A DNA stretch of 64,000 bases from Brachionus koreanus (taxonomy: Eukaryota > Rotifera > Eurotatoria > Ploima > Brachionidae), in assembly GCA_016987375.1 (NCBI GenBank), contig PJRA01000077.1, forward strand, positions 855,732 through 919,731, written 5' to 3'. Position numbers and translations under genes: made by a program. This document shows positions 30,701-59,387 of this stretch, in pieces. The first letter of the stretch is position 1, and the number at the start of each line of letters is the position of its first letter. A model generated the notes under the pieces. It saw only the letters and a program-made list of their open reading frames with translations, was not told the origin of the DNA and did not search any database.

Positions 30701-33700
30701 AGTCGTCGGCACTAAAAATCGAATGGTACGACTATTTGACAGTGGCCAAAAAATGCTACGAGTTTATGAGCGTTCACGAGCCGGCCAACATTAACCGCGA
30801 GCTAAAAGCAAACGATTTGACTGAATGGGTCTGGACAGGATCCGGATTTTCCTCAATTTGGTCAGTTTATCTTTTGAATGACAAAGATCACCCGCTGAGC
30901 TCTCATTTGGACACACTGCCCTACGAGTTGTATCCATATTTGGCTTTTTTTGAAACACTCGGCATGAAAAAAACTCCCGATGCCAAACAATTGGAATCGA
31001 TTATTCTAAAATGTGTCAAAAATACTCACAAGTTGATCAATAGTGCCAAGCTTATGTCAAAAGATCAAATTTTAGAGAATGCAGCCAAAAACTATCCGCT
31101 CATAAACTACATTAAGCTAAACTATCCGAATGAAGCAAAATTGATCAACAATATTAAAGACTATGAAGAATCACTGATAAGTTTGAGCTCTTCTATTAAT
31201 CCATTCGTTAGTCAACCAGTTAGTGCATCAACGATGAACTCAATAAACGAAGTTTCCACTGATTTAATTTACTTATACTTGCCAGATGTGTACAAATCTG
31301 TTGATATCAAAGACAATTTGATCAATTCAGTAATGAGCTTAATTAAGACAAAACATTTTAAACTGTTGGATGAAGAAGCCTACTTGATCAAAAAATCACA
31401 ACATTGTACCAATTTGTACGACCATTATCGCGTCTACAATGAAATAATTCTTCCAAATTTGAATAATTTGTCCAAAAATGTCAAGGACTCAGTTGTTTTG
31501 TTCGCTTTGGATCATGCTGATACAAAAATGCTCGAAATATTAAAAGATCATCCATGCATACCAGTCAGTCCGTATGGCAGACGCATCAAAAAGCCGAATA
31601 AATTAATTCATCCAAATGGAAAATTGGCTCCGTTGTATGCTGAATCGGACGAAAGATTTCCCTTTGGTTCCGAACAAGCCTATATCAGAGAGGACAGACT
31701 ACAGATATTGAAAATCTTAGGTATGAAGTGTGATCAGCTCACTTGGAATGAACTCATTGAACGAGCTGAGTCGGTATCAAAAATAAGAGAGTATGATCAA
31801 GCAGTTGAGAGGTCAATAGCTATTTTAAATATACTTAACGAAATGCTCATTAGTCAAGAGGAAATTTTGAGAAGAAGTAAGTTATTTTATTAATTTAAAA
31901 AATTTATCTCTTATTTTTCAATCAAGAAATTTTTCTATATTATTCAAATTTTGTATGCACAAATTTTCAAATTGAAAGAAATTGAAAGAAAAAGTTTTTT
32001 TTTTCTAAATTTTAATTAGAAAATAAGATTGAATTAAATTTTTGATTGAATTTTATATTTTCAACTTGAATGTTGTTCAAAATTTGTTTGTTTTATTATC
32101 TTTATTCTCACAAAGTTAAACTATGACTTGGAAACCTTTGAAAATAATAGTATTTAAATGAATTCAATCGAATTTAAATGCGCATTTAGGAACAATGATT
32201 TACTTAAAATTAATTCGATTCAGGTTAAACAGAAGCATTCTGTTTTATGATTTATAAAAAAAACAGAAAATGATTGATAGAAATCTTTAAAAATCGAGTA
32301 TAGTTCTATACTTAATCATATTTTTATTATTATTTTATCATTATTTAAACGATAATAAAGCTAAATTAATAATTTAAACTAGAATTTAATTTTAAGACAA
32401 TTATTTATGTATTAATTTTGTTCTTATAAAGAGAGTAATAATTTTAAAACATGCCAAATTAAATATTCCGAGTTATATAGATTCAATTTTCAAATGATTA
32501 AGTTTTGTTGCTTCATTCAAAATCTTCAGCTAATTTTTGTTTTTACTTGTTGAATAAGATTGTGTGATCAACTGGTTTTATTTACCTGACTTGCTTTTTA
32601 AAATAAATTTTGTGATAAAAAAATATTCCAACTCGATCTGAAATATTTTTTGGTTGTGTTTTTGATCAAGAATAATGTTCATGTAAAATAGGAATATTTT
32701 AGTCTGTACTGATGTGCCAATATTTTGACCAGATCAAACATTTTTGTATACTAATAAGTTTTTTAGGATAAATAAATTTACATAAAACATACTTAAAATT
32801 TAATTAATATATCGAAAAATTCTTCTTTTAAATAAAAATACCAAAATTTAAATCTAATTGACTGAATTAGTCGGAATGCTATCAATAAAATAATTATTAT
32901 TCCTTCATTTTTAATCGAAAACTGGTTAAAATTTTTAAATGTGTTGAATTGAGATTTGATGTAAATTAAAAATAATTGTGACATTTAACTAAGACTTAAA
33001 TAGATCACTCTAAAAAAATCCTGATAAATTACTTAATAATAATAATACTTTTTGATTTAATTAATTATTAGAAAAAATAATCAATTCTAAATAGATTACC
33101 GTATTCCCTTGCAGATAAGTGGGCCCTAAATTGTCTCTTTATTGAAAAATTTAGGACTCTTGGTTCAAATATGATATGTATTGAGATCTTAGATTGGCCA
33201 TCACGAAAATGCAGCGATGAAATGAGGTTTTTATGAGGGAATACGGCAAAAATTTCTTTGGAGTCTAAGAATGGATTTTTGAATTTTCAGCTTTGTTATT
33301 TGTCTTAGATCAAAATTTTAACCAGTAATGATATTAGAAGCACATTAAAGCCTTATTAGGGTTGCCTTAATTTTTTCTTTATTTTATTCGCACTAGAAAA
33401 GCAAAAAGAAAAACTGAATATTAATATTGTGTTGGTTTCACTTTTTTTTTTACCTAAAATAATTTTTTTTTAATCAATCAAATCAATAATCAAATTCAAT
33501 CTTATTGATATTTTAATTTTTGTCTTTTTTCAACAACTGTTATGTTTCCGAAATAACAAGATTTTTCGCTCCTTTTTTTAAAAGCACTAAAAACATGAGA
33601 ATCAATTAAGTTGATAATTTATTTCGTCTGGTGCTTCTAGTATTTAAAATTTATATTTTTATTAAATTTTTTTCTAATATTTTAGCTAATCAAACTGAAA

Positions 33701-36700
33701 GCCAAGAATTAAAAGAAATAGCTGAAACTTTAAAAGAAATTAGTTTTATACCCGTAAAACAAAAGCCATATCAAAAGTTAAATGTCTACTGGTTTGGCGA
33801 TAGATTCAAGTATCGATTTGCAAAGCCCAAAGAGTTGCTATCAGCTCAGTACGAACTAATCTCATCAAGTATAGTTTCCATACCATTAAATGAGTATAAA
33901 AAGAAAGAAAATTTGATTACAAAATCAGTTGAAAAATTTTTATCTATTGATGACTGGGAAACCAAGCTTACATTCAAAGATGTACTCAAGCACTTGGAAG
34001 AATTGTCAAAATCAAATTTATCGGATCTGGATGATGCAAAAGAAGTCAAACTCCTAAACGACATGGTCTATCAAGTTTATGAATACATTCAATCTGAATG
34101 TCTTAAAACACCTCAATTGCATGAATACATTCGCTTATTTTTCCATGACAAAAAACTTATACTTATAAATGACGATTTTGTTTTAGTATCGCAAGTTATT
34201 CTTTCTCTAAATTTCAATCTAAAGCCTATTTATTACCAATTGCCGCAGCAGTATCAACGTTCATTCAAATACTTGTTTAGTCAAGTTTTGCCCATAAAGC
34301 CAGATCTTGACTTGAACGATTTGCTGCTTATAGTCGATGTAGTCAAGCGCAAGTACAAAGACTTGCCAATTACAAACAAAGAAGATTTTAATCTAATACT
34401 AAACGTATACTCGCTGATAATCGATCACGGCTACAAGTCCATAAACAATTTGTATTTGCCCAACATAAATTCTGTCCTTTTGCCCGGTAGGCTCTTAAGC
34501 GTAAGCTCTATTGAGAACAAGACAGAAAATATGTCCGATTATGTACATCCGTCAGTCGATCGCAGAGTCTGCCTTGTCGCTGGATGCAAATTTACCGATT
34601 CAAATTTGGCTCTAGTGGCCGAACAGCGCGTTTTTCCGAGGGGCTTCGGCAACAAACGTCTCGAAGGTATACTAACTCGTTTGGACGACGAACGCATTGA
34701 TGTTAACCTAATGTCATCGTTGGACGAAGGAAATCCCTTAGTTGTCCTCGAATATTTGCTCGAGTGCAACCGAGTTCATTCGCTGAGCCAATTTTTGAGT
34801 GATGACGACATTTTTGTCTTATTGAAATACTTCAACGACTTTTTGGCTCGCAATTATCAGCAATCTCAATTCACTCGTCTTAAAGAGCTAAAAATCTATC
34901 GTCCTCTATGGAGCGAAAAATACATAAGTTTGCATGTTTATTCGCCATCGACTACTTCAATCTATCTGATAAACGAAGAGCTATTCAGCCTAATCAAACG
35001 ATCGCTGTTTAAACAACAGCAAACATTCAACGAAACAAACATTATTTTGATAAAGAGGAACGAACTTCTAAAGCTCTACGCTCATTTGGGTCTGAACAAT
35101 TTGAACGATGTAGAAAACTATCTTAACATTTGTTTACCTCTATTTCCGCAAATAGATGCCAAAACTCAGAACAATTTTCTCAAATATCTGTATGAAGAAA
35201 TACTGGAAAAAATTTACTCACACGAAAAAGAAAAATGCTTGAAAATACTCCGCGAACGTTTGTTTATACAAACACGTTCAGGCGAACACAAACTAATAAC
35301 AGACCTGTACGATCTTAAGTCCGAGTGTTTGACCAACATTTTGAATGAGTCCTATTTTCCGGACGAAGTGTTCGACTCGCCATTGTGCATACGCTTCTTA
35401 AAAGAGGCCGGTCTGCGTACCTATCTGCCGTCGGAGTTGTGTAAACGATGCATGAATGACATTGAGCAAAAAGTGACCGAATCGGGCTGGTCCGACGAAC
35501 TGCGACTAAAATCAAAGTACATTTATCAACATTTGATTGAAAATTGGCAACGATTCGACGACTCAGTGCTGCAGCAGCGCTTCCTCGAGCCATATGCTCC
35601 GCACACAAAATTCATCAGTCTCAAAAAACCCTTCGAATATGATCAATTTAAAAACAGTTGTCTTAAATTATCCGACGCCGAATTGCACTCATACGAAATG
35701 CTTGTATGGAGCTCGAGTTTCATATTGCCAAAGTTTGTCGACACAAACACCTTGGACATAAACACAATCGAATTTCTAAAGCTAAATAAAAAGCCATGCT
35801 TTGCCCTAGTCAATGTACATTTAAACAATATTTGTGCCGAAAGTGAATCGATAGACGAAAAGTGCCTAATTGAAGCGTTGTGCCACATTTACAAATATTT
35901 AAATGAAATGAATTTGACCGAGGCCGACAAGGACATACTCAAACAATTGGAAGACAAGGAAATTGTGTGGAGCTCAACCACCCGTAAGTTCGTAAGTCCG
36001 AATAAGTTGTGCGTCAATTTGGAGCCTAGTGACGAGTGTCCGCCATTTTTGTACTCGTTAAGCAGCGATTTGCACGACTATAAAAATTTGTTTATTCGCC
36101 TAGGTGCCAAAGACAAGCCGTATGCGATGCTGTACGGCGACATTTTGAGAAAAATGGCCAAAGTATGCGCTAGCGACTACTTGAATTCGAACGAGCTGTG
36201 CAAAGCGCTCAAGGCAATGGAGGGATTTTTCAAATATTTGAAACAAAATGCCGACACAATAAGCCCGCAGTTCAAGCTGCCCGGTCTTTACTTTGTCACC
36301 ACCGAGCTAAAGCTGGAGAAATCCTCAAATTGTGTCATTGTGGACAGTAGAGACAGCCTGGACGATCTGGCTAAGCTTACTCATGACAAATTTGTGTTCA
36401 ATCCGGGCGAGAGATGCTTCAAAATGTCGACTAGCGAAATAAAGCCGCTTATTGACAAAATATTCATATCACAGAGGCCGACTTTGTTCACACAAAAATA
36501 CGAGTCAACCTATGACTACACATTGCCCGACGATCCGGACTCGCAGCGACAAAATTTGCTCACCTCTCTCGAGCGAAAATATCAGCAAATATTCACCAGT
36601 CGTCAATTGCATCGTTGTTTGGCTCGATGCATTTCAAACGAGGAGGCGCGTCGTACATCGCCCAAGCATTTGGCTATCGACGAAGTCGAAAAAGTAATCC

Positions 36701-39700
36701 GCGATCGTTTGAGCTCAATTAAAGTAACATGTGTCGAGTACTTGGAAACCTCTTTGTCGTATAGAAAATTGTCCAATCAGCAAAAAATTGAGCAAACTGT
36801 CGAAGAAAAAGCATGCTATTTGACCAGCGAAAATCATCAATTTTCAACACTTTACGTGTCCAAAAAGCACATCGAACAAGCCTATTTTTCTCTATGCCTT
36901 GCTCGCAGTCTTCAGCCATTGCTAATCGATTTGCACTTTGACTATTCGATATTTACATCGCTAATCGCCACTAGTGTAAGTCTAATGAATCGCCTATTGC
37001 AGTTGGTCAATGTGGCAACCGAAGAGAACATTTTGTCAGTGATTAAACTTCAATATGTGCCCTCTAGCGGCAAGTTGTACGGCGACGATGTTCAACTGCT
37101 GGCTCCGTACGATCCCAAGCTTCACTCGGTGCTCATTGGCGACCTATGCGTATTTCAAAACGAACAAGGCGCATATTTGTACTGTCAAATAGTGAAAATT
37201 CTCGACCAGGACTTTATGGTCCTGGTGTCCGACGAGCCGACTCAAACGCTCAATGTGAACAAAAAAGATTTGTTTGTGCTGGAAAATTGGCACCGAATTT
37301 ACGATGCTATGCAAGCAAAGCCTCCGGACGAGCGCGAATCGTTCAAGTATTCGGACAATTTTAGCAATGACAGCAAATCGAAACAGAACAATCAACAGTC
37401 GTCGAACAATTCGAATGATTCGAATTTTGACGAATCGAGCAATGCGTCCGACACCTCCGATGTCAAATCGGAGACATCGTCAAATTATGACGGAAGTTCG
37501 GAGAACATACCCAACGCTTTCGAATTGGAACAAGCCAAAAATGAAGTTAACAATGAGCTGCGTCTATTGTGGTCGTTAGAAGAGAATGAACGTAAAAAGA
37601 AAATAAATCGTTTATTGCTTAAATGGCATCCGGATAAAAATACCGGCAAGGAAAAATTTGCCAGCGAAGTATTTAAGCATTTAAAAAAACAGATTGAATT
37701 GTATAAAAACGATCCGTTTTTGGCCGGATTCAATTATCGTTCATCGTATTCGTCGTACACACCGGGATTCTCATCTGGCGGGTACAGTTCGTCGACAACT
37801 GGTGACGATTACAGATCAAGACACTACAATTCGTTTGAGAATTTGAATCGAAAAGGAAGTCCCGGTGCAAGTGCAGGTCACTCGCCTCATTCGAGTCCGA
37901 GTCGTGACGGCGCATCGGCCGGCACTGGCTTTGACTATGATGCTAAGGGACCTGGTCCTAGCAATTTGGGACGAGCTGGCAGCTTTAGACAAGAGTGGGA
38001 GAGACGCAGACAACAAAAAAGACAAACTGGAACCGGAACTGACTCGAGTAATTATTTTTTGTTTTTTTATTAAATAGAATTTTTATATTTTTATGCTAAA
38101 TAAATTATTTTATTTCCTGCAGACTCAACAGAAAATGGTTTGTTAAGTTTTTTTCAATTGAGATTTTGTTCGATTTAGAGCTCGTTTATGATGAGTCGTT
38201 TTTTTTTTGTTTTTGTTCGAGTTGTATTTGAGGAAAAAAAATTTTAACTTAAGAAAAAAAGGTGCTTAATCGAATATATGAAATTAATTTTGAATTGGAC
38301 TTCAAAAAATTCTTTTATCACTTTTTTTAAGACTTTTTTTTTTCATCTCCCAGTAGCTAGTTCCTAACTGAATTCCAATTCAATTAGGGTTAAATACAGA
38401 ATTTTTCTCAAAGGTGTCAAGTCAAAGACTTTAAATTTCTATTAAATGTTAGTTTGAAATGAAAAATGTTGAATTGAAAAGAAAATTTATTTTTTAATTA
38501 AAATATTTTTCGGCATTTTAAATAACTGAACTAGAAAAAACAAAAATTTAAATTTTTTTCTTTTTGTCGAAAATAGAACTGATCAAAATGTTAAAATTTT
38601 TATAACTTTTTCTTTGAAATCAAAAGCAAGCTATGTAATATGCAACATGGTTCAACATTCTCAGTTGAATTTTTAAGATCATTCTGATAAAATTCTACAA
38701 ATTTAGCTAAATTTAAATTTGGACAAATTTTGATTTTGCAGAGATTTTAAAGATCAATGGTATTGATGTAACTGTGAATTCTATGTTGCAGTTACAAAAT
38801 TAGTAAAAAACTTTAAAAAAAAGTTATAAGCTTTTTAGCATTAATTTTTGTTCTATTTTTTTCAGTGTTGGTTATCGGCAGTGACAGCCATTGGCAGCTT
38901 TGATGGCCGTGTACAGAAATAAAAATCTAAAAATTTTCAAAAATATAAATTAGATAAATAAATTAATTGAGAATGAAAAAAAATTTAAACTTAGAAATAA
39001 AAAGTTTTTTACCCAGCAACCATCAAAGACGGCAAAAACCAATTTTTGCACTGACGGCATCTAACAATCATTTTTTTCATTTTTTACCAATTTTTGTTTT
39101 CACTTGCACCATGATACCGGCTTTTTATTTGCAAAGTTAATTTTTGACCGAAACAACAAAAGCTACTTCAATATTAAATTATAGGATTATTTTAGTCCAA
39201 AAATTCACAGTGCCATATTTTAAATTTGATTAATAATTTTTAAAAAGTGAAATGCAAATTAAATTTAAAAATTTGACTTGAAAACATAATAAAAGTCGAT
39301 TTGATTCTAATTAAAAGTTTGGAAAAAATTTTTAAATCAGACAGATATTCAGGTTAAAAGTTCTTAAGCTCTTATTTAGTTATTAAATTCATTTTAGTTA
39401 CGTATTTGGCTTATTGTACATAAATTTTAAGCTTCAAATTGACTTTTTTTGTGCAAAAAAAATCAAAATGAAAAAAAAAATCCTTTATTCAATTTTATTT
39501 CTTATAAAATTCTTTCTAGAGATTTTTTTCTAACTTTTTTTTTTCACAACTATTTGATAAATTTAATGATAGTTAAAACAAAAAAGAAAATCGCCTAATT
39601 AAGATGCAAATATTTTTACAATTTTTTTGTGTTCTTCTGAAATTTATTTAAGTCAATAAAATTCCCTGGCAATCAAAGAAAAATTAATCTATTTCATTAT

Positions 39701-41008
39701 TATTAATATTATCTCCACTGCATAGATATTACAAAAAATCATTTTTACTAAATAGGAAAAAATAAAAAGAAGTTACCTTCTCTAAAGATATTTATTTAAA
39801 ATTTAACTTTAAATTGAAATTAGTTAAAATTTTAAAATAATTATAATGCATAAACTGGTAATTTAATAATTGTCACTTTTGTGTTTCTAAAACTAACTAA
39901 AGTTCCTCTAAATTTATTTATTTAATTAAAGTTTAAGTCCTATGGACAAATTGAGATAAGAATATTGGACAGTTAAATATCCATTTTACAATTAAGTAAA
40001 AAATTCAGTTTGTTTTATAAAAAAAAATGATTAAGATTATTCAATATACAATATTCTATTAAATAAAAATAGTATTTTATCGAGTCGGTTAGTCAAGAGT
40101 TGCTACGTTGATTCATACATAAATAAATCATATCAATTGAAAAATTTACTAATATGTTATTTCATTTTAGTAAATTAAAATCAAACAACATCAAGAAATT
40201 AATTTTATTAATTTTAAATCACTTATAATCATTAATTTGCTTTTATTTATCACTAAAAAAATTTTGAAACGAATCAATACAACTCGATTTTAAATGCATT
40301 TACACACTAAATTAATTTTGACTGAATTAATTTTTTTTTTTACTAATTTGATAGATCGAAGATATAGATCATTTTCAAGAGATTATTATATGGGTAATTG
40401 TTTTACTCCGTGTTTGTTAGAGTGGCTTTTTAAATTCTTCCCTCTTAATTCAAATCATTTTAATTTGATTTAATAAATAATTTTTTTTTCAAAGGAGATC
40501 GAAGCAGTCCGTCGTCGGCAAGACGCCGCGGAACTGATTTCACACAAATGGATGCAAGTCTCTGGTTTACTCAAGCAAAAGCAGATCTTGAATCGGCAAA
40601 TAACGACATGCACCCGCTGACTGGCAAGCCAGCATACGAATGGGTCTGTTACAAGTGTTATCGAGCAGTTGAGAAAGCGTTGCGTGCATATCACTATTTT
40701 AAGGGAAACGGTAAGCTGCCTGCTAGTGATATTCACGGTCTACTGCTTGGAGTTGATACAAATATTAGAGACATAGCGTTTAGGTTTTGTAATTTTATTG
40801 GCAACGAGGCTAATTCTATGCAATATCCTGGAATCGCAAGATTCGGAAAAACACCAAATGAAGTCTTCCCATTGAGTAAGTTAAATGCTTGTTAATATCA
40901 ATTTAAAGTTAAATTTAATCTCAATAATTTTAAGCTAAAGCCGAGCAAGCTTTGGAATATGGCAAAGAATTGTTAAAGCTAGTTGAAGATATTATTTATG
41001 CAAGTTAA
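18770..41008 (+). CDS. SACS: Sacsin-like giant co-chaperone (Hsp90-like repeat, J-domain, HEPN)
   Basis: Nine exons join in phase: 18770-19031, 20431-21137, 24178-24867, 26304-27420, 29099-31876, 33686-38047, 38123-38137, 40495-40875 and 40935-41008, giving 3461 residues (human 4579). Residues 1-300 are Ser/Asn/Pro-rich. An Hsp90-like sacsin repeat starts near 310: YQGPALCITYDAI, HISDFIAILSGFKVAFVDP and GTIIRLPLR match human sacsin, but the ATP-site residues are not conserved. A long alpha-helical region with LISVPKEWRCGEE follows. A J-domain has WHPDKN near 3165, then a Ser/Gly linker, then a HEPN domain (WFTQAKADLESANND, EWVCYKCYRAVEKAL). Known role: sacsin links Hsp70 chaperones to intermediate filaments and mitochondria. 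No N-terminal ubiquitin-like domain is visible and only one repeat is recognised. Introns 1 (19032-20430) and 4 (27421-29098) show nothing bounded. Confidence 0.92.
22744..22965. mobile_element. TTAA-type MITE, family A (copy 2), in sacsin intron 2
   Basis: A 222-bp element with ends TCAACACTAGAAGTACC and, on the other strand, TTAACTCTAGAAGCAC. Length and termini match the elements at 512-734 and 25461-25682. One flanking TTAA has decayed to TCAA, indicating an old insertion. No coding capacity. Confidence 0.7.
23737..23940 (+). other. Possible alternative first coding exon of sacsin
   Basis: An ATG-initiated open stretch begins MSSLNPKAKFNNSN and is Asn/Ser/Thr-rich like the known sacsin N-terminus. 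It lies just after a pyrimidine tract and AG (23726) and ends at a perfect GTAAGT at 23941 in phase 0, the phase needed to join exon 24178. The same frame in fact remains open through 23941-24177 into exon 3, so a longer form is also possible. If used, the product would lack residues 1-323 of the long form. It cannot be an in-frame internal exon after exon 2 because the leader contains a stop. Confidence 0.35.
25441..25855. repeat. Dispersed repeat family B (copy 1), split by a MITE
   Basis: TAAAGATCAAAAGCAAG (25441 onward) and ATGCAACATGGTGCAGCATTC (from about 25683) are adjacent in the copy at 38614-38806 but are separated here by the MITE 25461-25682. Further similarity (aaatttggcttcagtgc, ctttgca) is shared with 41455-41606. 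It lies in sacsin intron 3. Confidence 0.6.
25461..25682. mobile_element. TTAA-flanked MITE, family A (copy 3), in sacsin intron 3
   Basis: 222 bp, bounded by TTAA (25461-25464 and 25679-25682). Ends: TTAAACTCTAGAAAGTCCG and, on the other strand, TTAAGACTAGAAAGCCCG. The interior is AT-rich and related to that of 512-734. It is inserted into an older repeat, which gives an internal empty-site comparison. Confidence 0.8.
33099..33246. mobile_element. Short MITE with CCGTATTCCCT ends, in sacsin intron 5
   Basis: CCGTATTCCCT (33099-33109) and AGGGAATACGG (33236-33246) are perfect 11-bp inverted termini around 148 bp that are GC-richer than the surrounding intron. No coding capacity. No convincing target duplication could be fixed, so the superfamily is unknown. 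Confidence 0.6.
38123..38137 (+). other. 15-nt microexon of sacsin
   Basis: Between a strong acceptor (TTTCCTGCAG) and a GTTTGT donor lie 15 bases that join exon 6 (phase 1) to exon 8 (phase 1), adding five codons (N-S-T-E-N region). As both neighbours are phase 1, skipping would also keep the frame. Failure to splice at the donor would add about 13 residues and a stop, removing the HEPN domain. Confidence 0.6.
38614..38806. repeat. Dispersed repeat family B (copy 2), in sacsin intron 7
   Basis: Contains AATCAAAAGCAAG followed nine bases later by ATGCAACATGGTTCAACATTC, the uninterrupted arrangement of the repeat found at 25441-25855. Right end not defined. Confidence 0.5.
38864..39069. repeat. 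Palindromic repeat (possible MITE), in sacsin intron 7
   Basis: The left arm (38864-38913, with CAGTGACAGCCATTGGC and TTTGATGGCCGT) is imperfectly repeated in inverse orientation by the right arm (39014-39069, with ACCATCAAAGACGGC and GCACTGACGGCATCTAAC). A related single arm is seen at 47894-47972. The GC-rich arms contrast with AT-rich surroundings. Confidence 0.5.
39912..39945. repeat. (ATTT)n-AAAGTTTAAGTCCTATGG repeat
   Basis: A short (ATTT)n run is followed by AAAGTTTAAGTCCTATGG. The same arrangement with one base changed ends exactly at the assembly gap at 57434. On the minus strand it reads as a unique sequence followed by an (AAAT)n tail, as at the 3' end of a LINE or SINE. Confidence 0.45.
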
Positions 41009-45404: not shown

Positions 45405-47156
45405 TTAAAAATTAATATAAATTTTTTTATAATTCATTATGAAAGAAACTATAAGCCAAACAACAACCCAATAAAAAGAATTAGACAAAAGCAAAAAGTG
45501 AGAACTCCCAAAATAAAAATTAGGAAAATAGTTTCCAAAAACGATATGACCAATATAGACCACTATTGAATTTCTGCCCATATACAAAAAAGGAGCACCT
45601 GAATACCAATCGAGCATATCGATAAAAATAAATAATATACTCAAACCTAAAAGTCCTCCTGATGCCATTACAAAAATAAAACTTAATGACCATAAATTCT
45701 TATTTATTGGAATCCATCCATCATTTATACTAAACTTGCACAATATTAAACCTAGTAATCCAAATAAAACTGCAAAAAAAATAAATCTTGCAATCATTTT
45801 TATTTTTTCCTCATAGTGCAAAATGATATGTCCAGTCATGACACCAAAATAAGTAAGCACGCAGCTAGTCAAGCATCCAAGTAAGCCCTCGGGGTCGTAA
45901 GGTACTGTATTTTTGTAAACAAATTTACATGTCGGGTCTTGATACATGTGCTTTGGGCCTAAAATTTTACGATCTATGAATCCTGCGGCTCCTCCTGTAC
46001 AATCAAAATGCGAACCATTTTCGTGTAGTCCACCAGGTCCTAAATAACCAGTTTGACAATTGTCTAATGGCAAAAAAAAACTGACAAAAAGCCACAAAAT
46101 AGCCAAGAATGAAATAACCAACCATTGAATCCAATAACTAAATATTTCGATAAATTTTTTTTGGTTATTATATAAAGTTGTAATGTATTGGTAATTGTTT
46201 AATTTCATGCTTAAAAGTTCTAAAAGAGCCATAACAAAATAAGAAATTGAAAATCGTTGTAAAACTCCCATTATTCTTAATTCATTTAGTTTCAAATCTG
46301 ATGAATTTGATGTAACCAGGCCAAAAAAAAACAGTAAAAGTGTTCTTCTAATTATTTTGATTACAACCAAGAATAGTTTAATATCATTTTGTCGAAAAAT
46401 GCTTTTAAATGAAAGAGGAATTGAAACTCCCATAAGAAATATAAATAAAGGAAATACAGTGTCAGCCAAATTTAGTCCGTTCCATACTGAATGATCCAAT
46501 ACTGAATAGCCACCAGCGCCAAAATTAACAAATATCATGATACTTAGACATAAACCGCGTAATACATCAATGCTTTTTATTCTATTTGATCTTACGCTTG
46601 GTCTCAAAACACCCTCTTGGTCTTCATTTATTACAATACGATCCGTTTCTGTTTCTGGTTGATTAATCAAACGATTTTTAAACTTAATCAAAATAAATTT
46701 GATTAGAAAATAAAAAATGTATAGAAATAATAAAATGCTTGGTAAGGTAATTAGCGGCTGATATTTCTTTTCATTTCCATCAACTATCGTTTCCAAATAG
46801 CAGTCTAATTTATCGTTTAGAGCATCAATACGAATTTTAATTAAAGAATTTTCGTTTAATAAAATTGATTTTTGGGAAAGTGATTGACACACAAGTTCAT
46901 TTGTAGCAATCAATTTGAAGAAAAAAAAATAATCTGGATAAAAAGTATCTAAATGCACTGTGTTGTTTAACAGATGATTGAAGCGGCCAAAGTTAGTTGG
47001 TTTACACTTATGACATTCACTATTTCTAATGCTAACACTTATGGTGCTTGTTGAGTTTGTTTCAAAAATAATCGTAGAATTGATGCTGTTTTCTGTCAAT
47101 ATAAAATTTCCATTCAAAAAAATAAGAATTAAAATGATCATTAACAAAGAATTCAT
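45405..47156 (-). CDS. HGSNAT: Heparan-alpha-glucosaminide N-acetyltransferase
   Basis: Single-exon gene, 583 residues. A signal-like hydrophobic start (LLMIILILIFLNG) leads into a luminal domain with a CHKC motif, then a first membrane span near 135-160. The family block RIKSIDVLRGLCLSIMIFVN then GYSVLDHSVWNGLNLADTVF contains the conserved His expected to accept the acetyl group. FPLFIFLMGVSIPLSF, ELRIMGVLQRFSISYF, GYLGPGGLHENGSHFDCTGG and DPEGLLGCLTS match the family, with about eleven spans in total. HGSNAT carries acetyl from cytosolic acetyl-CoA across the lysosomal membrane to heparan sulfate glucosamine. It has no intron here, while neighbours of similar size have several. The 3' end is close to a LINE. 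Confidence 0.94.
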   Translation of the reverse strand: MNSLLMIILILIFLNGNFILTENSINSTIIFETNSTSTISVSIRNSECHKCKPTNFGRFNHLLNNTVHLDTFYPDYFFFFKLIATNELVCQSLSQKSILLNENSLIKIRIDALNDKLDCYLETIVDGNEKKYQPLITLPSILLFLYIFYFLIKFILIKFKNRLINQPETETDRIVINEDQEGVLRPSVRSNRIKSIDVLRGLCLSIMIFVNFGAGGYSVLDHSVWNGLNLADTVFPLFIFLMGVSIPLSFKSIFRQNDIKLFLVVIKIIRRTLLLFFFGLVTSNSSDLKLNELRIMGVLQRFSISYFVMALLELLSMKLNNYQYITTLYNNQKKFIEIFSYWIQWLVISFLAILWLFVSFFLPLDNCQTGYLGPGGLHENGSHFDCTGGAAGFIDRKILGPKHMYQDPTCKFVYKNTVPYDPEGLLGCLTSCVLTYFGVMTGHIILHYEEKIKMIARFIFFAVLFGLLGLILCKFSINDGWIPINKNLWSLSFIFVMASGGLLGLSILFIFIDMLDWYSGAPFLYMGRNSIVVYIGHIVFGNYFPNFYFGSSHFLLLSNSFYWVVVWLIVSFIMNYKKIYINF

Positions 47157-49567
47157 TTTTTAGCTATTTTTTTAAAAACGATAAGATAATTTTGAAAAAT
47201 TTTAGATCAAAATTTCATATTAATTATTTTTATAAAGATATTAAAGAGGCTATCAACTAAAATTATAGTTTATTTCGCATTGTGATAATTTTTTGCATTA
47301 CTGTATTTTAGAATTAATGAACTAGTGCCTAATATTTTTATCCAGAATCTCTATTCTTTGAATATTTTTGTAGACCTAATCAAATTGCCACAAATATGTT
47401 ATTTATTGAATTTTATTAAATTAAAATTATGAAAATTAAAAATATAATTTACATTTTTTCTTATGATAAAAAAGCTTTCCATTTATCTTTTTAAAATATT
47501 TTTCATCATTAAAATTAAAAAGTTATTCTCATAAATTATTGAGTCCTATTTCAAAATTTCATTATTTGTGACGCATATCGATCGATTTCTAAATTAAAAT
47601 TACATAGATATTTTTATAAATGAATCAAACACATTAGTTTTTTGAAATTTAAGCTGAGATAAGATTTTTAAGTAAAAAAATTTGGCTGCTTAAACTTTTT
47701 AAAAATAATAATTTTTAATTTTTAAATCAGTTAAAAAAAACATTCAAAAAACAAATTGAATTTTTTCAAAAATAAATTTAAAAAAGTAAAAATAATTTTT
47801 TTAAAAGCTTTTGAATTTTTAAATTTCATATACTCAATTCTTTGATCTATCGAATTTTTTTATTTGAAAATTTTTAGAATTTTATTATATTTTACATGGC
47901 CATCAAAACAGCCAACACCAAATTCTGGCGGTCCAGTGGCGGTCACTGACGGTAGCCAAAACTAAAAAAAATTGCCAAATAATTAGTAACCAAAATTAAC
48001 AGATAAAATTTATTCTAATTTTTTTAAATGTTTTTTTAAAATTTTTTTTATTCAAGAAAAAATCATCAAGATAGATATAACATCTAGAGCCTAAAAACTG
48101 TCTAGCTTTTGCTTATAATTTGAGGTACATTAATAACTTAAGTTAAGAGAATGAATCACATTTTTAAAGTATTTTTAATAATTAGTGAATTGGTTTTAAA
48201 ATTATTAGTGGAGATGATTTTAAGATTTATCAATAAAAGTTTCGTAAAAAATCACAAAAAATATTTTAAAATAAAAAAGAAAAATTCACATCATTTAAAT
48301 TTTTAAAATGCATTTAAAGGGCATTCATTGAAGGTAAATTTTGTTCACAATCATAAATTATTTATTCCCTTAGAAATAAAATGTATTATCTTTATCTATT
48401 GTACAGCCAAGATAATTAATAGTTTCTAGGTTCAAATTGATAAGAAATGCTCAAATAAAATCCATAAGTGCGCCAATAACTCTAATCACAAAATTCAATT
48501 TTGCGAAAACTAAACCGTAGAAACACTGATCTTACTCGTGTGTATTACACAGAGAAGAGTTGTTTTCAATCTTTTATTTTTTTTAAGGTAAAAATTGTTG
48601 AAATTATTATATTAATTTTTTGTTTTAATTAAAAAAATTTATGGGCAAATATTTTTTTTCTTAATTTTCTCATTTCATATTCTTTATCTAACCTTTTTGT
48701 TTTTATTTTTAAAATGTATTAATAATAAAAAAAGAAGCACTAATTGTTAACAAAAAATTTAAATAAATTACTAATAATGTTATGTTTGTCATTATTATTA
48801 AATTAGCTAATAAATTCGTCTAAATTTTGAACTTGAAATCAAAAAAATTTTAGGTATAAATTAATTAAAATAAAAAGTTTTATTTGAAAAATTTAACTTA
48901 TCATTTTTTATTAATAATATTGAATCTTTATCTTTTAAAAGTGTCCCAAGTGATAAACCATAGTCTCAGACATTATAATTTTTAATATTTTTGGAATTTA
49001 AAATCAGATATTTTAAATTATTAAAGAAAATTTTTCCCAATAACTTTTAACTAAACTATCAGCTTTAATTTAAAACAAAAATCATTTAAGATTGATGGAA
49101 TCCGAAGGAGGTTTGAGACTTAAAATTTGACATATCTTATTACAATTTATGATTTGAGGCACTAAAAGTTTTTTTTTCTTAAATCGAGCACTATTAATAT
49201 GTACTAATATTAATAATAAGTTTAATAAGCATTTTACAATACCTTTTCCAAACAAACAATCGCATTTTATAATTCATTTAAATTTCATTTTATAAATTCT
49301 AGTTTTAAATTTATTTTTTATGCAAATATTATATGGTTAAATGAAAAAAGATTTCTTGTAAAAAGAAATTTTTAATGCCAAGGTTTAGTAAGCTTTAACT
49401 CGATGGGATTGCAGTATTTTTTACTACTACCATTAGTACAAATATGATCATTTTTTATTAAAAAAAAACTGAAAAAAAATTCATTTAATTTATTTCTTTT
49501 TATATAAAAGCAAAAATCTAATATACTAGACTAATAACATTGCCATAGGAATAATTTCCTATTTGTT
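47157..49567. other. intergenic between HGSNAT and the filament gene
   Basis: 2.4 kb of AT-rich DNA. One arm of the palindromic repeat seen at 38864 lies at 47894-47972. No gene or RNA supported. Confidence 0.45.
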
Positions 49568-51513
49568 TTACTTAAAGGCTGGAGACTTCATCAAGCGACA
49601 AAATTCTAAAATAAAAAAAATATAAAATTTTTTCAAAATTTTAATTTATGATTAAAACCTTGAAAGTTCAATCTTCCATCAAAATTGGAATCAACCTTTC
49701 TTATCATGGTTTCAATTTCATATTCACTAAAATTTTGTCCAATATTTCCCAAAATTTTCTTTAGCTCTGACACTGTTATATACCCGGATCCATCCAAGTC
49801 AAACTTATTAAAAGCATACCACAAGTCGTTGTCATCAAATTTTCCCGTGAACACTGGTAACATAAGTCTGCAAAACTCGTTGAAATCCAAATCTCTGCTT
49901 CCGTTCCTATCAACTTCACGCATCAATTTCTGATAAGCATCTCTGCTTAGTCTAACATTAAGTCTTTCCAAGATTCTATCTATTTCTGAAACATTAATTG
50001 TTCCACTCTTATCAGCATCAAAATATTTGAACACTTGCCTCAAGACTAAAATATTTAATCAAAGATTTATTTAATCTAATTAAAATCGTTATCTTACTGC
50101 TGATAGATTCAGATTCAGTATTTGATGTTGTAGTAGTTGTTGTTTTATTCAAATAAGTTTCATAGGAAAGATTCGAATTTTGCATAAGTTTTATTTGACA
50201 GTTAAGAATACTGCGATATGTTTGAATTTCAGACTCCAATTTGGTCCTAGTAACTGTGTCCCAATACTCAATATCGTTTGCATAAGAATCATTTTCTTGT
50301 ACTAGTTTTTCAATTTCATTTTGTAATCTCTCCAATTTTTCTTTATTTTTCAATTTTATATCCATTAAGCCTAAAATATTTATATAAATATATATATATA
50401 TATTTATTTTTTTTAATCCCAAATAAATATTTAGAAAATAATTTTTTTTTTTTGAAATTTACCATTTTCTAGACTAGCCAATTTTTTAACTAGATCATTA
50501 TTTCTTTGATTTAACATAGAAATCTCGTTTTTGGATGAATTAAAAGTTGAATTCAATTCAGAAACGTTGTAATTTTCAATGTCAATGGAAGCCTCTAATT
50601 TTGATTTAGCTCTTTCGGCCATTACTTTTTCATATTCAGCCGCTTGAGAAACAACAGACAATTCATTTTCTTTATGCTCTCTGTAGTCTTTCAATTGCTG
50701 ATCACTTAATTGTTTAAAATCAGATCTTATCTCTTTGACTGCAGTTACAAGTTCATTTTTATAAAAATTGCTCAAATCAACTGGATTTAATATGGTTCCA
50801 GTAGGTCTAGATCTTAAATCAGTAACTTCTTCGTTATAAACAGCCTTTCGGAAAGACAATTCATCTAGTAAAGTCTGAATTTCGAATTCAAGGCTTTTGT
50901 TTTTAAGTCTACTATCCTTTAGTGATACTCTAAGGTTTTCCAAATCTTTTTCAGCTTTAAAATGCTTGGTCTGTTCGCGAGCAATGTCATCTTCGGCGAC
51001 CAGAGCCGAACGAACCAGACTTTCGCGTTGATCTTTAAATGTATCCAATTGATTTTGTAAGGCCGCTATTTTTTGCCGTTGAGACTCGGATTCAACTTGA
51101 AAAAATTTTATTCTTTGATTCAATTCTTGTGATAGTGCTTCACTTTCCAGAATTCTTGTCTGATGTTTTACACAATCATACGACTCGGATTCTAGTTTTG
51201 TTCGAACTTTTTCAATATCTTGGTCCATGGAGTTCTTATTAACCAAAGTTGGAAAGTGGAATCCTTTTGCTCGGTCTACTTCAGCAATTAAGTGCTTGTT
51301 GAGCGCCTCTAGTGCTCGCACATTTTCCAAATAGTTGTGAAGTTGGGCATTTAATTTTTTTAATTCATTTTTCTCTGTTATGTTACTATTTTTTAATTTA
51401 AGAACAGCATTTTTTGTATACTGCTCAATGGCGGTAAAACTTTCAACTTCTGGTTTGGAAGCTGTTACCAAAGCGGCTGCAGCTCTCAATGACTGGGCAG
51501 TAAAATTTGACAT
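49568..51513 (-). CDS. Intermediate filament rod fused to a calmodulin-like four-EF-hand domain
   Basis: Four exons (51513-50463, 50370-50098, 50045-49659, 49605-49568), introns 92, 52 and 53 bp, all phase 1, give 582 residues. A short head is followed near residues 45-85 by the filament coil 1A motif (EKNELKKLNAQLHNYLENVR, ALEALNKHLIAEVDRAKGF). A long coiled coil ends with the coil 2B termination motif RTKLESEIQTYRSIL (about 392-406). Instead of a lamin tail there is a Thr/Ser linker (about 426-441) and four EF-hand loops: DADKSGTINVSE (451-462), DRNGSRDLDFNE (487-498, Arg for the usual Gly), DLDGSGYITVSE (524-535) and DSNFDGRLNFQE (560-571). The EF-hand exon has no ATG before its first loop, so it cannot easily be a separate gene. 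Inferred: a cytoplasmic filament protein whose tail binds calcium. Confidence 0.88.
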
Positions 51514-54411: not shown

Positions 54412-54999
54412 TTAAATTGAACTGACTATTCCAATAGTACCACATGCGATACGACTTCCGCTATTTCCGCTTTTCAAACTTTCTGGATGATTACCCATTC
54501 CTTGATCATCACTCCTTTCGTGAAGAACAATTGAACGACCAATAATTGAGTTTGGTCCTAGTAATTGTAGTTTAGCGCTTCTAATTGTGGTAACGATTCT
54601 TCCATTAATAGTTTGTACATTACCCAAATCTCCAGCATGACTGTTCATGCTCATAACTGATCCATGTCGAGTTCCAGTTGGATTCCAGTGAGGGCCAGCA
54701 GTGTTGCATACTTGAGAAGGGTCAAGCATGCCACCAGAGATTCCAAATGTATGAATGTGAACTCCGCGGACTTGGTTCACAATCGGGCTATTAGCTGGCA
54801 TAAAAGTAACATTTAGTCGAACTACAACTGGATCTCTTGGTGAAAGCTGAGAAAATTTGGCATCTCCAAAAGCCATTACTGGCTCGCGCATACCGGGATT
54901 CATTATACCACCGCCAATTATTGCCACGGCATTGATTGGAAATTTTTGTCCATTAGCATAACAAAAAACTGCAAACAAAAAAACTGCCAATTTTAACAT
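54412..54999 (-). CDS. Secreted Cu/Zn superoxide dismutase
   Basis: Single exon, 195 residues. A typical signal peptide (LKLAVFLFAVFCYANG) is followed by a complete SOD_Cu domain. Copper ligands are in GVHIHTFG (two His), the bridging His in AGPHWNPTGTRHG and the His of IVLHERSDDQG. Zinc ligands include the His of TRHG, and the His and Asp of HAGDLGN. The disulfide cysteines are in QVCNTAG and RIACGTIG, and the electrostatic-loop Arg is in GNSGSRIACG. All catalytic residues are present, so the enzyme should convert superoxide to oxygen and peroxide outside the cell. Loop lengths are slightly larger than in cytosolic SOD1, as in extracellular forms. No intron, and the start is the only Met before the signal peptide. 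Confidence 0.96.
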   Translation of the reverse strand: MLKLAVFLFAVFCYANGQKFPINAVAIIGGGIMNPGMREPVMAFGDAKFSQLSPRDPVVVRLNVTFMPANSPIVNQVRGVHIHTFGISGGMLDPSQVCNTAGPHWNPTGTRHGSVMSMNSHAGDLGNVQTINGRIVTTIRSAKLQLLGPNSIIGRSIVLHERSDDQGMGNHPESLKSGNSGSRIACGTIGIVSSI

Positions 55000-55239
55000 G
55001 ATTCTATTAAATTCAAAAAGCTTAATTTAAAATAAAGTCTTCGTTAAATAAAGCTAGTATTTCTTTTTATAGTCAATTTTAAATCTATTCAAAAAGTTTT
55101 AGTAATAAAAAGCTTTTTTTTTCTAGATTATTCTTATAGTGAATAGTGATTTTTGAAAAAAAAAATTATTCTTTATAAAATTTTATTTAAAAAAAAATCA
55201 AAATGGCTTAAAAAAATCATGCGCTTTACACTGTACAAG

Positions 55240-58200
55240 TCATAATTTTTTGAATTTAGTCAAATCACAGTATGTTTCGATCAAATGTTCACATTTTGTA
55301 TACGAGGCTCTTTTCAAACAGCTACATGACTCCAAGTCGAAAAAATAATTCGCTTGGCATTTTAGCGCTTTAGTCATGTTTTTTCCACTAATGCTTGCCT
55401 CATCACAAAAATAGTATTTAGAACAATCCAAAGGATCCCTGTAGAGACCTTTCTTTTTGTATGCACAATTGAACGATTCGCTCAAACTTAAAGAAAAAAA
55501 TTTCTCCGGCTGCTGACTAAGAAGCAACAAAAGATCGTTTCTGATACGATTTTGCTTTACTAATTCAAAATCAGCATCGGACTCGTCCAGCAAATTGACT
55601 TCTTCTTTCAAAACATAGAAAACATTAGCATTAACTGAGGTCTGTATTCTGGAATTTTTTAGCATTATTTTTTCTTTCTTGTTCACATTGGACGAATACC
55701 ATTCAGGCAAATAGTCCATGAGTAGAGACATGCTATTCTTAATTAAAGGATAAGAACCTTGGTGGCAAAATTTCCCACTAAAGTCGTCCATGTCTATAGA
55801 CCAAATAAATATTCCTCCCAACTTTTTAGCCACCACATATGCGGTCTTTAAGAAAGATTAACATTTTTCAAAAGAATTAAATATTTTTTCATAAAATACT
55901 CTTAATTGGAAGCTTTTGATATCATCATAACTAATCCAATCAAAATCTTGATATAGATAATGGCTTTTGCTTTGAGGCTGCCATTCCTGGGTCCAGTTTT
56001 TATTCTTTTTTAGGTCACATATTTCGTAAAAGCTCAAAAAGCCAGCTGTTTGTGTGTAGCTACCAGAAAGCGCATCGTTCTGAATTGTTTTAGATAACAG
56101 ACCAGATTTTTTTTTGTCTTTTAAATGAAAAGATCGGCCATAAGCAGGAAGACCTTTTAAAAATATCGAAATTAGTTTCAATTTTAAACAAGTAAATTTT
56201 TAAAAACCCAAAACAAGTTTGTGAGGTGGACAGCCATTTTTAATCCTTAAAAATTTTCTATTAATACAAATATATGATATTTGAGATAAATTTTACCAAT
56301 ATGTGACAGCCCAGTCTTGATTAAATTGCGTTTCGGTACCAGTAGCATTTTCATGGTTGTACAAAGGTGCATTCATACCTGTCTTATCATCCCTTTTTGA
56401 AAGAAAAATAAAAAATGAAAATAAAAATTAAATTTATTTACCAATTTCCATGAAAATCAAACCTTTTTAAAAAAAAAATTAGCTTAATTGATTAATAAAA
56501 ATTCAAATTTTTGTTAAATTTACGCCATTAAATTTATAAAGTCTAACTCAGCAGCTATTTTTTTTATTTCATATCCTTGATCAATTCTTTTTTTCCCAGC
56601 TGCAGCTGCTATCGATAAAATAAGCTGATCCTGGTCTTGATTAATTGACTCATATATAATTGCCTTTCGGAATTCTTTTATCAATCTGGTGAAATTTGGT
56701 TTGTCCGCTAAATCACCTCCTCTATCCCCAGGAAATTCCCAATCTTAAATTCGAAAAACTAAATATATCTGAAAATTTTATTGAAAAAAAATTAACGAAA
56801 AATTTACAATATTTTACATATTTTAATTATTTAGAAAAGGTGATTCTAATAATTTGATTTTTTCTCACAGATTTTATGAGAATTAAATACTAAAGTTAAA
56901 ATTAATTACTTACCTTTTATTTTAAATTTTAATTTTTTATCATTTTAAATAAAATAAATCAAAACAACTAGTTATTTTTATTTTTAATTTTTTTAAATTT
57001 ATTGCAAATCATGTAGAATAAATTTAACTTAATTTTTTTATCCTTGTGCATGTGACAATTAGACTCAAGGGTCGATTATTGTGAAGTCCTCAATTTTAAT
57101 ATCTCTAATTGTACACAATATTTGGTAGCGGAACAAAAATTTTATTTATTTAGATAAAATGAAGTTTAAGATTAAATTAAAAGTGATCATGCTGAAAAAC
57201 TCTCAGAAAAAATAGGTTTTAAATATTTTTTGAGTAAGAAATTTATTGCAGAAGTACATTTTCAAACTCAATAGTCAATATTAAGCTTAATTTTATACAT
57301 CTGCAAGCTTCTAAAAAAATTATATCATAAAAAATTATAAGTATGCATAACTTTACATGGCTATGATTTTTCATCTATTACTAAACATTTACTTTATTTA
57401 TTTATTTATTTATTTAAAGTTTAAGTCCCATGGNNNNNNNNNNNNNNNNNNNNNNNNNNNNNNNNNNNNNNNNNNNNNNNNNNNNNNNNNNNNNNNNNNN
57501 NNNNNNNNNNNNNNNNNNNNNNNNNNNNNNNNNNNNNNNNNNNNNNNNNNNNNNNNNNNNNNNNNNNNNNNNNNNNNNNNNNNNNNNNNNNNNNNNNNNN
57601 NNNNNNNNNNNNNNNNNNNNNNNNNNNNNNNNNNNNNNNNNNNNNNTAAACTTTGATAATAAGCTTCAATATGCTTTATTAAGCTGTTTTTTTTTTAACT
57701 TTTTAGTCGTTTTGTTTTGTAACAAGGAATTCAAAAACAAATTTTGAAAATTCTAATCTCATTTAATTCAACATTAAATTTGAATAAAATTTTTAATTAA
57801 GACAAAACATTGTCGTTTTTAAAAACAAATTTTACTTGAAAATTAGTAGTTTTTTTCGCTGAATATCTTGGCTGATTAACCTTTAATCATTTAACCTTTA
57901 AATAAACCAAATAATCGAAACGTAAATTAAAATTTTTATGGATAAAGTCTAAATTTCTATATGAAAATTATAAATCAATTAATTAATTCATTTTCTTTTT
58001 GTAATTATAAATGAAAGATTTTTTAAATGGAAAATACTAAATCTTGTGACTAAATGTAAATAATTGTTCAATTTTGTTTCCTCAAATTTCTATATTTTCT
58101 AGTATTTTTTAAATTTTTTATAAAAATATGAAGATACAAAAGTGCAAAATTATTTACATTTTCCAATCTAAATAATAATTTTCAAAATAAAGAACAAAAA

Positions 58201-59387
58201 AGACTAATTACCTAGATCAATTCCATCAAAATTGTAAAAACGTAAGAATCTAATAGCATGAGTAATAAAATTTTTTCTTGTTTGTTTTAACTTTACCATT
58301 GCACTGAATTCTTCACTGGCCATACTTAATAAAATTTTGAATAGATTTTATTTAGAATAGCAAAGAAAAAATTGAATACTTCCAACCACCAATAGCTAGC
58401 ATAGTTTTAAGCTTAGGATTTTTGTATTTTAAATCATTGATTCTTTTATACATTTCTTCATCGTTTTCCTCAATGGTTCGTATTGTAAGCGTATTTTTAT
58501 CTATGTAAGCAAATGCAAAAATAATGTGCGTACATAGGAATGGATCAACATTTTCAGGAAGAAATCGTGCTGAACCTGGCCTGTATTGACTCCAATTAGT
58601 AACATAGCATACTTTTTTATATTTGTATAATTGATCCAAATCGACAACAGGTTTTCGATTTTTATATTTTCGGTTTTTTTTTTTCGATTTTACTTTTGGT
58701 ATATTTATATTCTCATTTCTATTTAGTTTTATTGGAACAACTATGTATGCATATTCATTTTGATCATTATTTATCAAATCATAGCTGTCATTTGATGAGC
58801 GAAATTCTCTAATTTTTTCTGGAAAGTCTTTTGCAAATAAAGTTACTAGTTTTTTTTCTCCGGGACGAAATTTCAACTTTTTGGTAACTTGAAATGAAGT
58901 AGTCATTGCATTTGTAGATGCATTTACCATTTTTGTCTCTAAATTTGATTGACACGGATGCCAAGGAAGCGACCAGACACACTTTTGAATTTTCTCATCA
59001 AAAATAAGACCACGAGCACATTTAAATATTTTGCTAGTTGAAGATTGCATATATGGATAGCATAGCTGGTAGTAACACGGTCCTGCTTCGTTGATGCACA
59101 TTAAACTTTTCGACTCAGATTCTTTATTCATAATAAAAAACATTTAGCTTTTTCAAGAAGAGTAAAATAAAAATAAAATTATTAATAAATTCTTTTTAAA
59201 ACTTATGAATCAATATGTTTCAATATTCATTTTAAGAAATTAAAAAATGGTTGTAAGTGTCTAGTTGAAAAATTTTCTCCTACTTACCAAGGTGCTTTTG
59301 AAGATAGAATGTGTTGAATTTATGTTGGGCTGCAGCATAAATTAATAGATATACAAATATAGAGTATAATTCGAACAAGTGTTTCAT
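55240..59387 (-). CDS. GH18 chitinase with chitin-binding domains at both ends
   Basis: Nine exons, all in phase: 59387-59288, 59121-58380, 58324-58212, 56743-56524, 56462-56442 (21 nt), 56392-56297, 56245-56208, 56153-55900 and 55845-55240; 729 residues. A signal-like start (FVYLLIYAAAQ) precedes a Cys-rich peritrophin-like module (FKCARGLIFDEKIQKCVW). A basic linker leads to the GH18 barrel: VCYVTNWSQYRPG, LKTMLAIGGWN, catalytic DGIDLDWEFPGDRGG with the acid Glu intact, MAFDFHGNW, LVLGLPAYGRSF and FIWSIDMDDFSG. The C-terminus is a second chitin-binding module (YRDPLDCSKYYFCD). It hydrolyses chitin outside cells; substrates here are probably cuticle, jaws or egg shell. Intron 3 (56744-58211) holds an assembly gap. 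Confidence 0.93.
57394..57433. repeat. (ATTT)n-AAAGTTTAAGTCCCATGG repeat at gap edge
   Basis: Same arrangement as 39912-39945, broken off by the assembly gap. Confidence 0.45.
57434..57646. other. Assembly gap (213 N)
   Basis: A run of N in chitinase intron 3, starting inside a repeat. Confidence 1.

Follow-up and report, generated by a model that had tools for sequence, protein, structure and literature searches.

A calmodulin-like domain following an intermediate filament rod in a gene of the rotifer Brachionus koreanus

Intermediate filaments are usually viewed as passive, slowly remodelled cables under phosphorylation control, and no filament protein of animals is known to us to carry a calcium sensor of its own. 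EF-hands occur in proteins linked with these filaments, such as the S100-fused proteins profilaggrin and trichohyalin, which carry an N-terminal S100 domain with two EF-hands and are filament-associated, not filament proteins themselves. Muscle alpha-actinin possesses an EF-hand tail on a rod, and this tail is calcium-insensitive. Here we describe a gene of the rotifer Brachionus koreanus which, unlike the S100-fused proteins, has four EF-hands placed after a filament rod. It lies in a window of 64 kb (contig C35, positions 855732-919731), which is the whole stretch of DNA analysed, and the assembly searched comprises 83 Mb in 92 contigs. The gene represents a real and conserved subfamily of filament proteins that is apparently undescribed.

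The gene is located on the minus strand (51513-49568) and its four exons splice to an open frame of 582 residues (Table 1). The three introns (92, 52 and 53 bp) all have GT-AG borders and are all in phase 1. The original prediction for this DNA had proposed one chain of four such exons, in which a full rod with recognizable motifs for coil 1A and for the end of coil 2 is joined to four EF-hands. The frame and both motifs were found as quoted, and Pfam assigns 83.1 bits to the Filament match and 101.2 bits to the EF-hand_7 match. The prediction was also right that the EF-hand exon has no ATG ahead of loop 1, its earliest Met lying downstream of this loop, and that an intron of 52 bp with GT-AG borders precedes this exon. 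In one respect it has to be amended: loop 2 indeed has Arg at position 6, but it is not the only deviating loop, as Phe occupies position 4 of loop 4.

Intron 3 interrupts the codon of Glu-12 in loop 4. Because the last ligand of this loop is completed by exon 4, removal of intron 3 is required for four whole sites; if the intron is retained, the protein ends with NFQGFNHKLKF and the Glu-12 ligand is lost. The C-terminus encoded by exon 4 is nearly identical in the relatives P0001-P0003 (P numbers denote matched proteins). If intron 2 were retained, the product would be a rod without EF-hands. In the second copy of the gene described below the read-through is different and stops after SKIRI, so that a conserved rod-only form made in this way is thought unlikely.

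The Filament match covers residues 47-408 (curated cut-off 40 bits). The rod is 353 residues long in the window protein and 351-354 residues long in all eight proteins compared, and by length and subdomains, judged against the names and lengths of known rods, it is of the long type found in lamins and protostome filament proteins. A profile of the family matches five vimentin or lamin A/C chains (E-values up to 1e-5). With the cytoplasmic filament proteins and lamins of protostomes it shares the long alpha-helical rod, the motif that starts the helix, the TYR of the rod end and a Filament score above the cut-off. It differs from them in having no match to the lamin tail domain (PF00932) and a four-EF-hand domain in its place, in forming a rod clade of its own, and in reading SILNCQ where the consensus has LLEGEE. 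Within the nine fused proteins of alignment A1 the segment TYRSILN is invariant. A head motif resembling SLKAATSLV is present as a single copy in the window protein. Two or three copies of this motif were seen in P0004, P0012-P0015 and P0018, and the repeated motif could perhaps serve in assembly or docking.

EF-hand matches span residues 421-577, with the EF-hand_7 match far above chance (E 4e-29), and Pfam gives zero EF-hand matches in the N-terminus. The ligand positions 1, 3, 5, 9 and 12 are acidic or polar in all four loops. The loops start at residues 451, 487, 524 and 560. Their spacing of 36/37/36 is that of calmodulin in its usual loop numbering, and the tail can be aligned to a calmodulin without gaps (43 of 134 residues identical). 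The Phe at position 4 of loop 4 is barred by the PROSITE-like EF-hand pattern used for loop scoring, yet this is not a ligand position. Each of the nine EF modules compared has Met, Leu, Ile or Phe at all nine mapped positions where calmodulin has Met, and seven of these modules contain the Trp-Tyr helix LWYAF. All relatives with a complete tail have kept four (or eight) loops.

The tail resembles calmodulin and troponin C in its four EF-hands. Unlike calmodulin it is covalently part of a filament protein, six of the nine mapped Met positions are occupied by Leu or Phe, and the family has its own conserved segments LPVFTGK and LWYAF. After its own two copies, the next best-scoring match of the EF part in the genome is 34% identical, and no single named EF-hand family was identified as its kin. 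A rod ending in a calmodulin-like domain is also the arrangement of alpha-actinin (see the available portion of PMC5775757). In contrast to alpha-actinin, the rod of the window protein is of the intermediate filament type, and among the 12 Pfam families listed for it there is no calponin-homology or spectrin match.

Table 1. Exons, introns and EF-hand loops of the filament gene, given as positions of the window.
Feature	Position	Strand	Remark
Exon 1: head (SLRAAAALV motif), coils 1A and 1B, linker, start of coil 2	50463..51513	-	
Intron 1, 92 bp, GT-AG, phase 1	50371..50462	-	position matched in second copy
Exon 2: terminal part of coil 2 (ESEIQTYRSILNCQ), then Ser/Thr-rich linker	50098..50370	-	
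Intron 2, 52 bp, GT-AG, phase 1, separating rod from EF parts	50046..50097	-	
Exon 3: calmodulin-like part (EF loops 1-3 entire, loop 4 for the most part)	49659..50045	-	
EF loop 1, DADKSGTINVSE	49984..50019	-	residues 451-462
EF loop 2, DRNGSRDLDFNE, Arg at loop position 6	49876..49911	-	residues 487-498
EF loop 3, DLDGSGYITVSE	49765..49800	-	residues 524-535
EF loop 4, DSNFDGRLNFQE, Glu-12 codon finished by exon 4	49659..49692	-	residues 560-571
Intron 3, 53 bp, GT-AG, phase 1	49606..49658	-	
Exon 4: final helix EFCRLMKSPAFK, stop codon	49568..49605	-	

The best protein match is P0001 from Brachionus plicatilis, which is 88% identical and bears only the name 'calmodulin' in the database. A search with the whole window protein resulted in 25 matches (8 with Filament and EF-hand, 15 with Filament only, 2 with EF-hand only), and a search with the rod end and tail of P0001 in 13 matches, 11 having both parts and three ids being new. 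The original prediction had suggested looking for Filament and EF-hand in one chain elsewhere, and in total ten distinct relatives of this kind were found under 11 ids, one sequence being entered under two ids that differ in their start. A profile search (26 matches) yielded no additional fused member, and P0001 had no NCBIfam match above the cut-offs. The whole-protein and profile searches scored only those candidates which share most words (7994 and 7995, respectively), and distant filament proteins of other phyla were therefore possibly left unscored.

Seven fused relatives (P0002, P0003, P0004, P0006 and P0028-P0030) have unbroken frames of 1.73-2.72 kb, the longest contigs being 1.77-2.92 kb, and these records presumably represent spliced mRNA. 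In P0010 and P0012, which come from contigs of 4.3 and 7.6 kb, one frame leads from the rod into the first EF-hand and ends inside the EF part. That rod and EF-hands share one unbroken frame in relatives speaks against two separate genes, and this reading was rejected. An artefact of the assembly confined to a single contig is likewise ruled out by a second copy on contig C21 and by the other sequences with the same architecture. In P0004 (906 aa), two complete calmodulin-like modules, together eight EF-hands, stand behind a long proline- and arginine-rich linker; the modules are 60% identical to one another, and one of the eight loops fails the pattern used.

Searching the literature by title and the beginning of the abstract, with most subscription journals outside the scope, we found no described family that has both rod and EF-hands, in agreement with the original prediction that no known cytoplasmic filament protein of metazoans ends in a calmodulin-like domain. 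The available portion of PMC4448529 describes the architectures of cytoplasmic filament proteins as conserved within subtypes, and neither EF-hand nor calmodulin occurs in the available main text of this or of the other lamin and filament survey, PMC10125929.

In the tree of the rods, all 27 rows of the window-gene kind form one clade (100/100), and the six further filament genes detected in the genome fall outside it. The tree has 33 rows; P0029 was omitted because it repeats P0028, and P0024-P0027, P0031 and P0032 because they have no rod. Of these six genes, four carry a lamin tail domain, which in L003 sits in a separate downstream frame, and in two no second domain was seen. The frames scanned for these six genes contain no EF-hands, and none of the 58 EF-hand matches of the genome is nearby. 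The lamin of this genome has the C-terminal end AVQKFLGLWKSQP. Table 2 in the available portion of PMC10125929 gives KFLGLWKSQP as the end of the B. koreanus lamin, and the other seven monogononts listed there end differently. The lamin end thus agrees with that of B. koreanus, and the window is taken to come from this species or a very close relative.

Within the clade, proteins with EF-hands are found in each of the three branches with at least five rows and in two single rows, while no EF-hands were seen in the single rows P0021 and P0023 or in the pair P0009/P0011. Since a fused query was used to gather the rows, fused members are favoured in this count. The stem of the clade is very long (3.17 changes per column), and due to this and other long branches (L001, L009, L005) the order among the other filament genes is unsure.

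Tail and rod were compared between the window protein and seven of the ten distinct fused relatives (P0007, P0010 and P0012 end inside the EF part and were excluded). Conservation of the tail exceeds that of the rod in each of the seven comparisons that include the window protein; for example, identities of tail and rod are 65% and 49% for P0006, 65% and 52% for P0028, 58% and 44% for P0030, and 55-57% and 48% for P0004. Across the eight proteins, 48 of 140 tail columns and 84 of 354 rod columns are invariant. The sequences show that rod and tail have been inherited together. The subfamily is present in Brachionus and in further relatives, and its four-EF-hand domain would replace a lamin-type (Ig-like) or unstructured tail.

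Contig C21 holds the entire gene a second time (L008) with 95% DNA identity, and this copy is spliced likewise to 582 residues. Between the coding sequences 59 of 1749 bases differ, 46 of them at third codon positions, which leads to six residue changes, none of which lies within residues 442-582. The two EF exons differ by 14 bases without any residue change. About 49 kb of the window (1628-64000) can be aligned with C21:382423-447718 in 25 pieces of at least 150 columns, which are collinear except for one small inverted piece. Their identity ranges from 80 to 97%, the long pieces having mostly 92-94%. The pair represents either a haplotype that diverges strongly and was left uncollapsed, or a large segmental duplication. 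On both contigs, paired EF-hand matches suggest that the similarity of C35 and C21 extends beyond 200 kb. The lamin gene, used as a DNA query, was found at a single place in the genome.

A structure was predicted with AlphaFold2 for P0001, using alignment A2 with 22 of the 25 whole-protein matches (P0005, P0024 and P0025 were omitted and P0028-P0030 are absent). The model (mean pLDDT 72.9) consists of helices at residues 45-86, 93-233 and 251-416, a linker of low confidence, and eight EF helices at 438-577. With this model Foldseek lists calmodulins as top matches in the PDB (E 1.6e-9, probability 1.00), and troponin C is among the best.

We lean towards the view, which we regard as moderately probable, that the gene belongs to a distinct subfamily of cytoplasmic filament proteins, in which a tethered calcium sensor would control how filaments cross-link or bind partners. 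The rods would pair and assemble as in other filaments, and the calcium sensors would project along the filament on the short Ser/Thr-rich linker. Binding of calcium would open the lobes, expose the conserved Met/Leu/Phe face and the LWYAF helix, and these could then grip a partner or a neighbouring filament. Calcium might thereby switch the cross-linking or attachment of the network, similar to alpha-actinin but on an intermediate filament rod. Calcium-responsive filaments had already been proposed in the original prediction, and this idea fits the conserved ligands and the hydrophobic face.

Several points weigh against such a calcium-sensing filament. The rod-end motif, usually TYRKLLEGEE, is altered, TYR being kept and the remainder reading SILNCQI, and the hydrophobic a/d pattern of coil 2 is weak (0.44 vs 0.32 elsewhere, in one register only); therefore self-assembly is not certain. 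The pTM of the P0001 model is low (0.22), and the whole domain superimposes poorly on PDB structures (rmsd about 8-16 A, TM by target about 0.4-0.5), so that the relative placement of the lobes is uncertain. Among the pairs without the window protein, one has no surplus in the tail: between P0030 and the first module of P0004, tail and rod are equally conserved (41% and 41%). Furthermore, members of the subfamily without EF-hands may exist, because 15 of the 25 whole-protein matches show a rod without EF-hands; six of these (P0005, P0008, P0017, P0019, P0020 and P0022) end near the border of exon 1, and the remaining nine end in the tail region and are undecidable as to EF-hands.

The changed rod end, the weak heptad signal of coil 2 and the very long branch of the rod clade would also suit a coiled coil which no longer makes 10-nm filaments and acts as a dimeric, calcium-regulated linker. 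We consider this very improbable in view of the constant rod length in all eight proteins and the match of the family profile to vimentin and lamin rods. Rather unlikely, though worth keeping in mind, is a fused protein with a constitutive structural or targeting tail, whose EF-hands serve to fold the domain or keep calcium bound at all times, without any switching. Certain rod-borne EF-hand tails are calcium-insensitive, as in muscle alpha-actinin, the Arg of loop 2 and the Phe of loop 4 stand at normally restricted positions, and a P0004 loop lies outside the pattern. On the other side, no loop of the window protein lacks acidic or polar residues at the five ligand positions, and complete tails have retained the number of their loops together with the mapped hydrophobic target-binding positions.

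The filaments could alternatively be a scaffold that stores or buffers calcium and gives no signal to partners. Abundant filaments would offer very many sites and the eight EF-hands of P0004 would add to them; a hydrophobic face that is conserved, together with the LWYAF helix, is however more in keeping with a sensor that binds targets than with a pure buffer, and we hold buffering alone to be improbable. Hardly any credit can be given to an artefact of the gene model, be it two adjacent genes or merely an alternative transcript. The model was built from genomic sequence and intron 2 could be retained, but frames are unbroken in relatives (P0010 and P0012 included), a start codon ahead of EF loop 1 is missing, and the second copy does not repeat the retained-intron reading.

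Possible, although we would rather doubt than expect it, is a whole class of calcium-switched intermediate filaments, namely an old rotifer subfamily with a calmodulin (four or eight EF-hands) per subunit in which calcium sets the stiffness or attachment of the network. Such a network might possibly be a scaffold linked to muscle, or the intracytoplasmic lamina that lies in the syncytial epidermis. In the literature searched, including the available portion of PMC13403294, no protein has been identified for the intracytoplasmic lamina, and the role in a tissue is therefore conjecture. A conserved filament subfamily that contains its own calmodulin would link calcium signals directly to filament mechanics, provide a candidate protein for this unusual intracellular epidermal layer of rotifers, and offer protein designers a natural calcium-responsive filament. 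It also affects the public label of the fused B. plicatilis protein, now catalogued as 'calmodulin' alone.

Among the neighbouring genes of the window, the large frames on the plus strand (29074-40892) include one that has a J domain towards its end, followed by a HEPN domain. The best PDB match of the J domain is 1iur (KIAA0730; E 6.7e-12), which we take to be sacsin, and the region is probably a sacsin-like gene. Sacsin acts on intermediate filament networks of vertebrates. The closeness of such a gene to a filament gene is curious and perhaps due to chance. On the minus strand, a frame at 45408-47159 is weakly similar to the transmembrane glucosamine N-acetyltransferase NagX (96.6 bits, below the cut-off of 480) and is perhaps like animal HGSNAT. 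Also on the minus strand, the region 54415-59143 harbours a frame for a Cu/Zn superoxide dismutase as well as frames with a chitin-binding domain and a partial GH18 chitinase.
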